In this document: in pieces, positions 667 to 4,499 of the stretch
How positions within the stretch are numbered: position 1 is the first letter of the stretch
How the letters are laid out: every line of letters starts with the position of its first letter
NCBI GenBank assembly: GCA_024644775.1
Contig: JAHEHB010000049.1
Span: 1-7,314, forward strand
Direction of reading: 5' to 3'
Source: Deltaproteobacteria bacterium
Lineage (GTDB): Bacteria; Desulfobacterota; Desulfobacteria; Desulfobacterales; SURF-15
DNA: 7,314 nucleotides
Position numbers and translations under genes: made by a program
The notes under the pieces: model-generated
Told to the model about the DNA's origin: nothing
Database searches by the model: none
The model's input: the letters and a program-made list of their open reading frames with translations, nothing else

Positions 667-696
667 TTGACATAACATATTGAATTTAATTATAAT
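667..696 (+). promoter_or_regulatory. Consensus sigma-70 promoter upstream of the mvhD/flx operon
   Basis: TTGACA (667-672) and TATAAT (691-696) are both perfect hexamers, separated by 18 bases, which predicts a start near 703 and a leader of about 190 bases before the ATG at 893. The leader holds a GCGACC/GGTCGC hairpin (742-758) and a GGTTG-T-CAACC palindrome (766-776), either of which could be a regulatory structure or operator. Confidence 0.65.
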
Positions 697-892: not shown

Positions 893-1324
893 ATGTCTGA
901 TTGGGAGCCTAAAATTGTCAGTTTTTTATGCAGTTGGTGTAGCTATGGGGCGGCTGATTTGGCTGGTGTGAGCAGAATGGAATATCCTTCGAATATACGC
1001 GTCATTCGAATTCCCTGTACCGGGAGAATGAGTCCCAAGTTTTTTTTGGCTGCGTTGCGTGAAGGTGCTGATGGGGTTTGGGTATCTGGTTGACATCCCG
1101 GTGAATGTCATTACCTGGAAGGTAATTATTACGCCCGTCGGAAGTTTGCACTGTTTCAGAATCTCATGGAGCATATGGGGATTGAGCGCAGCCGCCTTCA
1201 TTTTTCATGGGTATCTTCTGCAGAATCCACTAAATTCGTTGATGTCGCAAATGAGATTACCGATGCGGTAAGAGCATTGGGGCCCAACAAACGTTTTGTA
1301 AAAAATGGGGTGAACCTGATCTGA
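893..1324 (+). CDS. mvhD: Selenocysteine-containing MvhD/FlxD-like hydrogenase iron-sulfur subunit
   Basis: The frame starts at ATG 893 behind a modest GAGAAGG site and continues, through an in-frame TGA at 1091-1093, to TGA 1322-1324: 143 residues, the usual MvhD length. MvhD-family proteins carry a [2Fe-2S] cluster and pass electrons from a hydrogenase or an FlxABC module to HdrA. Visible family features are '[20 protein letters not shown]' (residues 4-23; C13, C16), '[12 protein letters not shown]' (C42), 'GADGVWVSG' (58-66), then position 67 (TGA) followed by 'HPGECHY' (C72). After the TGA the sequence stays family-like ('[18 protein letters not shown]...'), which a decayed pseudogene would not. 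Cysteine homologues have Gly-Cys-His at this spot, and methanogen VhuD is a known selenocysteine form. The first of four co-directional genes, 20 bases before the next. Alternative: a nonsense-mutated gene, judged unlikely because of the hairpin after the TGA. Confidence 0.88.
1091..1135 (+). promoter_or_regulatory. Bacterial SECIS-like hairpin for UGA recoding
   Basis: Directly after the TGA a hairpin can form: upper stem ATTACC (1110-1115) with GGTAAT (1121-1126), apical loop TGGAA (1116-1120), an internal loop, and a lower stem GGTG (1100-1103) with CGCC (1132-1135). The loop begins 22 bases after the UGA and has G among its first two positions, as expected of bacterial SECIS elements read by SelB. 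The hairpin lies inside coding sequence, also as expected in bacteria. Folding energy was not computed. Confidence 0.7.
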
Positions 1325-1344
1325 CATCCCGATATCGGATAAAA

Positions 1345-2292
1345 ATGTTAAAATATATTGATCGAATCAGAGAAATTTCGGAAAGACTGTTAAGAGACGG
1401 CAAAGTGGATATGATCATCGGATTTCGTAAAGGAACCGTTCCGATGATGAGTGAACCCTGTTTTATAAAAACAGAAGCAGGCGTTCAAAATCTGGTATGG
1501 GACAGCAACTGCGGCATCAATTTAGCAAACTATCTGACAGACAGAAATGAAAGGATCGGTATCATCGCCAAAGGGTGCGATTCACGAAACATCGTTACCC
1601 ATATCATCGAAAATAAGATAAAACGAGATCAACTTGTAATTCTCGGTATTCCCTGTAAAGGAATGATCGATCGGCATAAAATAACCGCAGCCGCTAATGG
1701 TGAAATCCGAAAAGTTATCGAAGATGAAAATACCATTACCGTCAAAGGGGAGGGGTTCAAGGACCAATTTCAGAAAATAGCCGTATTGCAGGAAAACTGT
1801 CGGTTATGTATTCACCGGAATCCGGTCCTATACGATGAGCTGGTCGCGGATTTAGTTGAAGAACAAACCGATGTAAACCGGTACGAAGATGTTCGAAAGA
1901 TCGAATCCTTATCTATTAAAGAAAAATGGGGTTTTTTTAACGAATTGCTTTCCGACTGCATCCGTTGTTATGCGTGTCGAAATGCGTGTCCGCTCTGTTA
2001 CTGTCCCACTTGTTTTGTGGACGAATCCAAACCACAATGGGTGGGCAAAAGTCAGGATCCCATGGATGTTCGGACGTTTCATTTCCTTAGAGCATATCAT
2101 TGTGCCGGAAGATGCACCGATTGTGGCGCCTGCGAGCGTGCCTGTCCGGTAGGCATCAATATGCGGACGTTTACAAAAAAACTGGAAAAGGATTGTCTGG
2201 AACTGTTTAATTGGGAAGCCGGATTAACGCTTGAAGAACGGCCGCCGTTGGATACCTACCGGTCGGAGGATCCGGATGATTTTATTAGATAG
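1345..2292 (+). CDS. FlxC-like / FrhB-FdhB-family iron-sulfur protein with two 4Fe-4S motifs
   Basis: This 315-residue protein belongs to the group of coenzyme F420 hydrogenase/dehydrogenase beta-subunit-like iron-sulfur proteins and matches the position of FlxC in flx clusters. The N-terminal part has scattered cysteines (39, 56, 78, 104) in 'IAKGCDSRN' and 'GIPCKGMID' contexts typical of FrhB/FdhB-like proteins, then 'NCRLC' (151-155). A dense motif, 'CIRCYACRNACPLCYCPTC' (205-223), can bind a 4Fe-4S cluster with extra cysteines, and 'CTDCGACERACP' (257-268) is a classic 4Fe-4S site. There is no signal peptide or membrane segment, so it is cytoplasmic. The ATG at 1345 follows mvhD by 20 bases with only a weak ribosome site (CGGATA), which suggests translational coupling. 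Role inferred: electron relay between the FlxB/FlxA-like subunits and MvhD. The FlxB versus FlxC naming is by analogy. Confidence 0.8.
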   Translation: MLKYIDRIREISERLLRDGKVDMIIGFRKGTVPMMSEPCFIKTEAGVQNLVWDSNCGINLANYLTDRNERIGIIAKGCDSRNIVTHIIENKIKRDQLVILGIPCKGMIDRHKITAAANGEIRKVIEDENTITVKGEGFKDQFQKIAVLQENCRLCIHRNPVLYDELVADLVEEQTDVNRYEDVRKIESLSIKEKWGFFNELLSDCIRCYACRNACPLCYCPTCFVDESKPQWVGKSQDPMDVRTFHFLRAYHCAGRCTDCGACERACPVGINMRTFTKKLEKDCLELFNWEAGLTLEERPPLDTYRSEDPDDFIR

Positions 2293-2353
2293 AGTTGGGG
2301 AATTGTAACATTTAACGTGATGTTGGGTCCTCAATTGACTATAGGATATCGTG

Positions 2354-3421
2354 ATGAAAATTGTAAAAATCAGCAAAACGGATTGGGCTGATGGAATTGA
2401 GTCTTTGAAAGAATCGTTCCGTGTTTTTGGCCCGGTTGAAGAAAAGGGCTTCCAAATATTCAAGACCCTTGAGAAAGGGCAATCGCCGGACTTAACCTGC
2501 TTAAATACCCGGCTTTCTCCAAAATCGCTCGTTTACCCCCAGTCTCAGATCCTGTTCGATTATACCCTTGATGAAAAAAAGGCAGATCACCATCTTTTAA
2601 AAGAAGTTCAACGGGAAGAATATCCCCGGGTTGTTTTTGGGATTCGGCCCTGTGATGCCAAAGCGTTTTTGCTGGTGAAGCTCAATTTTGATACACCTGA
2701 TATTCAAGATCCTTACTGGATTCGTTCTTACGAATCCACCATTTTTGTTGGGCTTGCCTGTGATCGTCCCTGCGGTAGCTGCTTTTGCACGACTGCCGGC
2801 TGCGGTCCTTTTCATGAAGAAGGGCTCGATGCATTGCTTGTTGATGCAGGGGATCATTATTTTGGGAAAGCAATCACCGACAACGGTGAGCGACTCATGT
2901 CAAAAGCCGGGTGGAATACTGAAGTAGAAGACGCGAGTGTGGATAAGCAGATTGCAGGCATGAAGCAGGCTGCCGAAGCAAAAATATATTCCTGTGTGAA
3001 GACAGATCACCTAAAAGAGCTTGAAACAACCACACTTTACGACGCACCGTTTTGGGAGGATGTAGCATTTTCCTGCATTAACTGCGGCACCTGCACGTAT
3101 GTTTGCCCGACGTGTTGGTGTTTCGATATTCAAGATGAGACTCATGGATACTCTGGCAAACGGATGCGTAACTGGGACAGTTGCATGTATCCACTTTTTA
3201 CACTTCACGGCTCCGGTCACAATCCAAGGGGTACCAAGACACACAGAGTCAGACAACGATTTATGCACAAGCTTAAGTATTTCGTAGACAAGCATGACGC
3301 GGGCATTCAGTGCGTCGGATGTGGCCGATGCATCCGTCTCTGTCCAGTCAATATTGATATCCGTAAAGTCTGCAATATGTTAAACAGCTTCGATTCAAAG
3401 GCCTGTGTCGTCCCGGGTTAG
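2354..3421 (+). CDS. FlxB / HydB / AsrA-like 4Fe-4S dicluster electron-transfer subunit
   Basis: This 355-residue soluble protein resembles the beta subunit of sulfhydrogenase and anaerobic sulfite reductase subunit A, the family to which FlxB belongs. Visible in order: an N-terminal domain with 'RPCDAKAF' (98-105), a cysteine-rich 'CDRPCGSCFCTTAGCGP' (136-152), a first cluster motif 'CINCGTCTYVCPTCWCFD' (241-258) and a second 'CVGCGRCIRLCPVNIDI' (320-336). Both match two [4Fe-4S] clusters passing electrons from the flavin subunit encoded next. I prefer ATG 2354 over GTG 2351 because AGGA (2343-2346) is then seven bases away instead of four. A 58-base gap precedes it, without a clear promoter or terminator, so it is probably in the same transcript. 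The neighbouring MvhD and absence of a catalytic sulfite reductase C subunit favour Flx over Asr. Confidence 0.82.
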   Translation: MKIVKISKTDWADGIESLKESFRVFGPVEEKGFQIFKTLEKGQSPDLTCLNTRLSPKSLVYPQSQILFDYTLDEKKADHHLLKEVQREEYPRVVFGIRPCDAKAFLLVKLNFDTPDIQDPYWIRSYESTIFVGLACDRPCGSCFCTTAGCGPFHEEGLDALLVDAGDHYFGKAITDNGERLMSKAGWNTEVEDASVDKQIAGMKQAAEAKIYSCVKTDHLKELETTTLYDAPFWEDVAFSCINCGTCTYVCPTCWCFDIQDETHGYSGKRMRNWDSCMYPLFTLHGSGHNPRGTKTHRVRQRFMHKLKYFVDKHDAGIQCVGCGRCIRLCPVNIDIRKVCNMLNSFDSKACVVPG

Positions 3422-3441
3422 GAGAGTGAGGAGTCAGTGCA

Positions 3442-4287
3442 TTGAAGAATCCATACTTGCCTTATCCGGTGCGAATCGATGAAATCATTACGGAGACCGA
3501 AGATAAGAACCTTAAGACGTTTAAGTTGGTTTTTCTGAATCCGGAAGACGAAGATAGGTTTTCGTACAAATCCGGCCAATTTGCAGCGCTTTCGGTGACA
3601 GGAAAGGGAGAGATCCCTATTGGCATCGCATCTTCTCCAACGGAAAAAGGCTTTTTGATGTTCACCGTCAACAAGGTCGGTTTGGTTTCTTCGTATTTGC
3701 ACACCATGAAGGCCGGAGATATCATAGGCGTACGAGGTCCCCTCGGCAACCGATTTCCGTGGGAAAACATGGAAGGCGGCAATGTGGTGCTCATTGGCGG
3801 CGGTTTTGCCTTCACGACCCTTCGATCTTCTATTGTTTTCATGCTCGATTCTTCCAATCGACCGAAATTTAAAGATATTCATGTAATATATGGCGCCCGG
3901 GCACCCGGCATGCTTCTTTACAAAAACGAATTGATTGCATGGGAACGACGGGACGATATCCACGTATCCATCACGGTGGATGGAACCGATGACCCGAACT
4001 GGAAGTATCATACCGGCTTTGTTCCCACCATCACGGAACAGAGGGCGCCACCGGGAAATGCAGACACATTTGCCATCGTATGCGGTCCTCCCATCATGAT
4101 CAAATTTACTCAGCCGGTGTTGGATAGTTTGGGATATGGACCGGAGCAGGTTATTATGTCGCTTGAAAACCGAATGAAATGTGGAATTGGGATGTGTGGG
4201 CGGTGCAACATTGGCGAGGCATTCGTTTGTAAAGACGGACCGGTTTTTACATTAGCGCAACTAAATCGTATGCCAAAAGAATACTGA
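3442..4287 (+). CDS. FlxA-like FAD/NAD(P)-binding oxidoreductase with PyrK-type [2Fe-2S] site
   Basis: This 281-residue protein belongs to the sulfhydrogenase gamma / AsrB / PyrK group of ferredoxin-NADP reductase-like enzymes and would oxidise or reduce NAD(P)H in the cytoplasm. The FAD-binding barrel shows 'YKSGQFAALSVTGKGEIPIG' (42-61) and 'GDIIGVRGPLG' (92-102). The NAD(P) domain shows 'VVLIGGGFAFTTLRS' (115-129) and 'AIVCGPPIM' (211-219). The C-terminal 'CGIGMCGRC' plus the cysteine at 263 (C247, C252, C255, C263) is the PyrK-like [2Fe-2S] ligand set. The start is a TTG: GAGGAG (3428-3433) sits eight bases before it, and there is no in-frame ATG until about residue 73. It lies 20 bases after the preceding gene. 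By context it is the NAD(P)H entry point of the Flx-like module rather than a sulfite reductase subunit. Confidence 0.83.
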   Translation: MKNPYLPYPVRIDEIITETEDKNLKTFKLVFLNPEDEDRFSYKSGQFAALSVTGKGEIPIGIASSPTEKGFLMFTVNKVGLVSSYLHTMKAGDIIGVRGPLGNRFPWENMEGGNVVLIGGGFAFTTLRSSIVFMLDSSNRPKFKDIHVIYGARAPGMLLYKNELIAWERRDDIHVSITVDGTDDPNWKYHTGFVPTITEQRAPPGNADTFAIVCGPPIMIKFTQPVLDSLGYGPEQVIMSLENRMKCGIGMCGRCNIGEAFVCKDGPVFTLAQLNRMPKEY

Positions 4288-4362: not shown

Positions 4363-4499
4363 AAAAATCTCAAATTCCAAGCACCAAATTCCAATGAAAT
4401 ACCAAATTTCAATATTCAATGACCCAAACAGGTTTGGAATTTTGAATTTTGGTCATTGTGATTTGTTTGGAATTTGAGTATTGGAATTTGGAGATTTTT
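4363..4499. repeat. 137-bp AT-rich inverted-repeat element
   Basis: The outer ends AAAAATCTC (4363-4371) and GAGATTTTT (4491-4499) are perfectly complementary, as is an inner pair CAATGACC (4417-4424) and GGTCATTG (4451-4458). Between them the arms carry repeated CAAATTCCAA and TTGGAATTTG text that pairs with gaps, so the whole unit can fold into one long hairpin. A degenerate second copy lies at 421-536. It encodes nothing visible. It may act as a transcript end or stabiliser after the flx-like operon, or be a miniature mobile element. Confidence 0.75.

Follow-up and report, generated by a model that had tools for sequence, protein, structure and literature searches.

An in-frame TGA very probably read as selenocysteine in the mvhD/flxD gene of a desulfobacterial flxDCBA-dsrC cluster

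The window analysed here is a stretch of 7,314 nucleotides (contig JAHEHB010000049.1 of assembly GCA_024644775.1, a Deltaproteobacteria bacterium of the Desulfobacterales) in which flxD, flxC, flxB and flxA genes stand in a row (893–4287), with subunit names assigned by order and similarity, and are followed by dsrC (Table 1). The same mvhD-flxC-flxB-flxA-dsrC order recurs in relatives, for example at loci L071, L010, L088 and L103. An opposite-strand gene encoding a PocR domain lies at the window edge and is followed by 640 bp with no recognised gene. The promoter-like site ahead of mvhD is a possible transcript start and agrees with the consensus at 12 of 12 positions, in a region where 14 promoter-like sites were found against 9.4 expected. 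Between this site and mvhD there is an inverted repeat, GCGACC-GGTCGC (742–758). Additionally, each of the cluster's two long gaps contains a copy of a 56-nt AT-rich repeat (419–474 and 4364–4490, 88% alike), the second copy belonging to a 59-nt palindrome; this repeat is possibly a small mobile one and could account for spurious matches to miRNA families in Rfam.

Table 1. Features of the flxDCBA-dsrC cluster and its surroundings, in window coordinates.
Feature	Position	Strand	Remarks
Promoter-like site TTGACA-18-TATAAT	667..696	+	12/12, consensus match only
mvhD/flxD CDS, 143 aa with predicted Sec67	893..1324	+	Terminal TGA 1322–1324
In-frame TGA, predicted Sec codon, residue 67	1091..1093	+	Frame, Cys column, TGA in homologues
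SECIS-like stem-loop ATTACC-TGGAA-GGTAAT	1110..1126	+	Loop 1116–1120; 6–7 bp
flxC-like 4Fe-4S protein, 315 aa	1345..2292	+	Named by position
flxB-like 4Fe-4S protein, 356 aa	2351..3421	+	Resembles sulfhydrogenase beta and AsrA; below curated cut-offs
flxA-like FAD/NAD(P)H oxidoreductase, 281 aa	3442..4287	+	Resembles sulfhydrogenase gamma and AsrB; below curated cut-offs
dsrC, 105 aa	4691..5008	+	Cys93 and Cys104 near the C-terminus

The mvhD/flxD frame contains two stops, both TGA, at codon 67 and at the terminal codon 144, and the standard ORF list holds only a 66-residue fragment (893–1093), which bears out the warning in the preliminary description that automatic annotation would lose the real protein. 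That description had also portrayed an MvhD-like frame broken solely by the TGA at codon 67 and intact beyond it, and our analysis agreed on both counts, as this was the single inner stop, the 76 codons downstream were uninterrupted and the read-through product matched the FlpD family along its full length. In a Pfam profile search PF02662 scored 174.4 bits (curated cut-off 22.3), with residues 8–130 covering profile positions 1–123 of 123, while a gap-free alignment to the solved MvhD 5odc_D (1–133 on 1–133, 166 bits) placed residue 67 opposite the Cys of GCHLGDCHY; the query protein used in the profile, structure and protein searches ended in one spurious extra Cys derived from the terminal stop. 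A fold search with an AlphaFold model of the product (mean pLDDT 73) returned MvhD 5odc_D as the top PDB match (TM 0.73/0.76). The model is poor near residue 67, with pLDDT below 50 at residues 69–71 and 75–79, and so does not show the cysteines holding the cluster. In a 27-row alignment Cys13, Cys16, Cys42 and Cys72 were invariant and residue 67 was Cys in most rows, which leaves five candidates for four [2Fe-2S] ligands, residue 67 being a possible one.

The identity of codon 67 was surveyed in 291 genomes of the order to which Desulfosarcina widdelii belongs, and a strong homologue (E≤1e-60) was present in 216 of them. Among the 224 matches listed from these genomes, 192 carried TGA (one of them also a TAA) and 32 were stop-free, every one of the latter having TGC or TGT at column 67. 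The first 148 genomes, for which lower-scoring matches were left aside, contributed 150 of the listed matches (143 with one TGA, seven stop-free), and the other 68 genomes contributed 74 (48 with one TGA, one with TGA and TAA, 25 stop-free). The best match carried TGA in 191 of the 216 genomes. When sites with fewer than 60 nt downstream and repeats of an identical 120 nt were set aside, the fetched loci comprised 216 distinct homologues, 178 with TGA, 22 with TGC and 16 with TGT. A DNA pattern for Gly-TGA-His-x-Gly-(Asp/Glu)-Cys-His-Tyr with free third positions, run on genome contigs, likewise found at least 117 stretches with at least 119 sites, and all 119 aligned to the window protein with local scores of 262–672. 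The alignment proposed in the preliminary description thus recovered the expected Cys/Sec column, with Cys in 5odc_D and TGA, TGC or TGT in relatives.

At the protein level, the best 120 of 7988 matches had Cys (109), Trp (9), Gly (1) or Arg (1) at this column. The Trp and Gly entries are probably TGA codons called with other code tables. Trp, Gly or Arg marks the Sec column of the near database proteins P0003–P0008 and P0010. We know of no code table that would give the Arg of P0006.

Phylogenetic analysis of 204 rows (203 of the 216 homologues and the window) placed the window inside a group of 56 rows that all carry TGA (support 87), nested in a group of 66 all-TGA rows (support 81), on a tree built from few columns and having many weak forks. 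The TGA/Cys label required nine changes on this tree, compared with a shuffled mean of 34.4, and at least three changes were forced by well-supported branches. Four of 20 genomes (G003, G004, G007, G015) possessed a second member of the family, a Cys form with 69–73% identity to the window. Among 20 paralogues chosen for carrying TGA, 13 had it at column 67 only, five at column 16 (CxxU) only and two at both. MvhD paralogues with TGA at both columns 16 (CxxU) and 67 were seen at loci L016, L052, L084, L248 and L249, and these are candidates for bacterial double-Sec proteins.

The SECIS-like stem-loop starts 17 nt past the UGA, its loop TGGAA begins after 22 nt, and one further T-A pair is possible in the stem. 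The bSECIS model as outlined in PMC13188914 has a loop of 3–9 nt, a stem of 4–16 bp, a G among the first two loop nucleotides, a distance of 16–37 nt from the UGA and an MFE of −7.5 or lower. The window hairpin conforms to these rules, with G at loop position 2, the 22-nt distance and a 57-nt fold of −14.2 kcal/mol; the short hairpin by itself gave −5.1 kcal/mol. Synonymous shuffling of the window sequence alone gave a weak signal, as 300 of 5000 shuffles equalled the stem length and 105 of 5000 the energy. An Rfam scan of the window, which has little bearing on bacterial SECIS elements, returned four matches, all below gathering scores and none a SECIS.

Comparison among relatives carries the case for a putative SECIS element that is weak on the window alone. 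Two hairpin forms, defined post hoc from sequences already seen, accounted for 174 of 178 TGA genes in comparison to one of 38 Cys genes: form A (ATTACC..GGTAAT) occurred in 150 TGA genes and one Cys gene, and form B (GCCAC..GTGGC and similar) in 24 TGA genes and no Cys gene. The stem is built from different synonymous codons in the two forms, on its 5' and its 3' side alike, the pattern expected of compensatory change. A plain count of stems of at least 6 bp separated the groups less sharply, including 167 of 178 TGA genes but also seven of 38 Cys genes. Within the subset having (L/I/M)(E/D)GN after CHY, codons 73, 74, 75, 77 and 78 were CAT, TAC, CTG, GGT and AAT in all 125 TGA genes while neighbouring codons varied, and the same five codons were all variable in the 28 Cys genes. 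Synonymous entropy at codons 73, 74, 77 and 78 was 0.26–0.31 bits in 89 TGA genes (window included), lower than at any other of the 56 conserved degenerate codons (next 0.40), compared with 0.75–1.84 in 33 Cys genes, both sets being restricted to ungapped frames of at least 62% identity. In the 125/28 subset Glu71 was found in 77 TGA genes and one Cys gene, for which an RNA or a protein cause is possible. A single Cys gene (TGC, locus L232) keeps both hairpin form A and Glu71 and has likely changed from Sec to Cys, leaving a fossil SECIS.

Genes of the Sec-decoding machinery were found in most of the relatives tested. SelB exceeded its cut-off in 36 of the 45 Sec-form genomes searched (19 of 20 in a first set, 17 of 25 in a second). 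In the first set tRNA-Sec was above cut-off in 18 of 20 genomes and reached at least 72 bits in 15; five of 14 control genomes also passed that cut-off. The nine genomes in which SelB was not detected included eight with SelA and four with tRNA-Sec, which may reflect gaps in draft genomes. In one genome with the TGA form (G168) these searches detected none of SelB, SelA and tRNA-Sec. SelB presence does not separate the two forms, as 24 of 25 genomes in which a Cys form ranked best also have it. Additionally, a second, divergent SelB (252–303 bits) was observed in eight of 70 genomes searched (L148, L149, L268–L273). A tRNA-Sec gene directly precedes it in seven of the eight loci, with two such units in tandem at L269, and Hdr genes occur in five of the eight, three of these with a Cys MvhD. 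A possible additional Sec-decoding unit associated with Hdr loci would merit closer attention.

Taken together, the Cys/Sec column, a SECIS-like hairpin nearly limited to TGA genes and the Sec machinery in most relatives tested corroborate the proposal of the preliminary description that codon 67 specifies Sec, and on sequence evidence the inner TGA is very probably read in this way. SelB carrying Sec-tRNA-Sec would bind the stem-loop at 1110–1126, upon which the ribosome would insert Sec at the UGA (1091–1093). Electrons would then probably pass from NAD(P)H through FlxA, FlxB and FlxC to the Sec FlxD and on to an HdrA-type flavoprotein encoded elsewhere, the neighbouring DsrC being the likely thiol/disulfide end point. 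We consider it highly probable that 893–1324 encodes a Sec MvhD/FlxD whose UGA is decoded with SelB and this hairpin, and which probably links NAD(P)H oxidation by FlxABC to such an HdrA with DsrC as the likely end point. The sequences directly show the frame, the Cys/Sec column, the hairpin with its near-limitation to TGA genes and the order of the genes; we infer Sec insertion, the electron path, an HdrA at another place and any part that residue 67 plays at the [2Fe-2S] cluster. Likewise, the effect that had been expected of a selenol at the MvhD-to-HdrA junction on the entry to electron bifurcation can only be inferred, because no hdrA precedes mvhD in the window.

An isolated stop inside a gene of a draft contig may come from a sequencing error, and one of the 224 homologues listed does carry a TAA besides its TGA, so that the true codon might be TGC or TGT or the gene might be decaying. 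This is very improbable, as 178 distinct relatives share this TGA at an identical alignment position and have intact downstream frames and a conserved hairpin, and no other inner stop was found in mvhD or in seven other window genes checked. A changed genetic code, with UGA read as Trp or Gly, would accommodate the Trp and Gly entries among the best 120 protein matches and yet is the least credible of the explanations weighed. Both mvhD and flxA in the window end in TGA, Cys dominates the column in those same 120 matches, SelB and tRNA-Sec are present in relatives and a changed code needs no hairpin; the Trp and Gly entries are more easily attributed to gene callers using other code tables.

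The remaining alternative accepts the Sec codon and differs in the electron path, treating mvhD(Sec)-flxCBA-dsrC as a stand-alone unit that would work without HdrA, with NAD(P)H as electron source and DsrC or some other partner as acceptor. Five Hdr queries gave no match in the window, so hdrABC does not adjoin the flx genes within it, the promoter-like site precedes mvhD and dsrC comes after flxA, all of which suit a self-contained unit. Upstream sequence from relatives bears on both sides. An HdrA/HdrL match lay within 700 bp before mvhD in 120 of 136 TGA rows and was absent in 16, the window included, a count covering rows with 600 bp or more of upstream sequence (18 shorter rows and seven rows with no motif being left out), in which some places are represented twice and the upstream sequence of many rows is only 1000–1500 bp long. 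HdrA may sit elsewhere in the genome, and in the systems described in PMC6019823 and PMC6687939, as far as these accounts extend, it is to HdrA that MvhD or FlxD delivers. We regard the stand-alone unit as unlikely. Slightly less likely again is its more specific version, an NAD(P)H-driven Sec FlxD-FlxCBA-DsrC system with no dedicated HdrA, in which the Sec67 selenolate would help to ligate or tune the [2Fe-2S] cluster for a partner other than HdrA.

Standard gene calling truncates this subunit at residue 66, and in 191 of the 216 sampled genomes of the order that possess a strong homologue the top match is a Sec form, so many such genes may be misread. The two hairpin forms offer a sharp signature for calling Sec mvhD genes. 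The Sec reading would also make selenium a factor in the flavin-linked electron flow of sulfate reducers.

Sec in MvhD has been in print since 2006, and the window gene is a further example. The preliminary description had cited methanogen VhuD as precedent; VhuD can indeed carry Sec, and the precedent proved wider than this, as Sec FrhD/MvhD proteins of Deltaproteobacteria are already published. The portions of these reports available to us list 19 bacterial FrhD selenoproteins, eight of them in Syntrophobacter fumaroxidans (PMC1794560, 2006), mvhD1, 2, 3 and 5 among the Sec genes of Desulfobacterium autotrophicum (PMC2702500, 2009) and mvhD as a Sec gene of Desulfococcus multivorans (PMC5109826, 2016); they give neither the position of Sec nor an flx context. 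A table in PMC13188914 (2026) gives the family motif as CxxU with a "2" in the next column, which by our own reading stands for up to two Sec. The window gene resembles the deltaproteobacterial examples in belonging to the FlpD family, in its in-frame UGA with a SECIS, in having Cys homologues and in the Hdr context of most relatives, and differs in preceding flxCBA and dsrC with no hdrA adjoining. Methanogen VhuD similarly belongs to the MvhD family, can contain Sec and feeds HdrABC (PMC6019823; PMC13188914). Archaeal SECIS elements, as summarized in PMC13188914, are mostly located in the 3' UTR, in contrast to the bacterial-type hairpin in the coding region here, and the window contains no hydrogenase genes.

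A Sec-containing FlxD was not found in the open-access literature searched: the word "selenocysteine" is absent from the available text of PMC12125255, and that of PMC6687939 describes no Sec FlxD. The methanogen MvhD passes electrons through its [2Fe-2S] cluster to the FAD of HdrA according to PMC6019823, and the Desulfovibrio FlxABCD-HdrABC complex is proposed in PMC6687939 to oxidize NADH and to reduce DsrC, the gene order printed for Bilophila being hdrCBA-flxDCBA (PMC12125255). The window cluster shares with these Desulfovibrio and Bilophila systems, as presented in those papers, the flxD-C-B-A order and the proposed partner DsrC, and differs in its predicted Sec FlxD and in that hdrABC was not found in the window. 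The likeliest interpretation of these comparisons is that the cluster would follow the same path as Desulfovibrio FlxABCD-HdrABC, but with a Sec FlxD and with HdrA encoded elsewhere.
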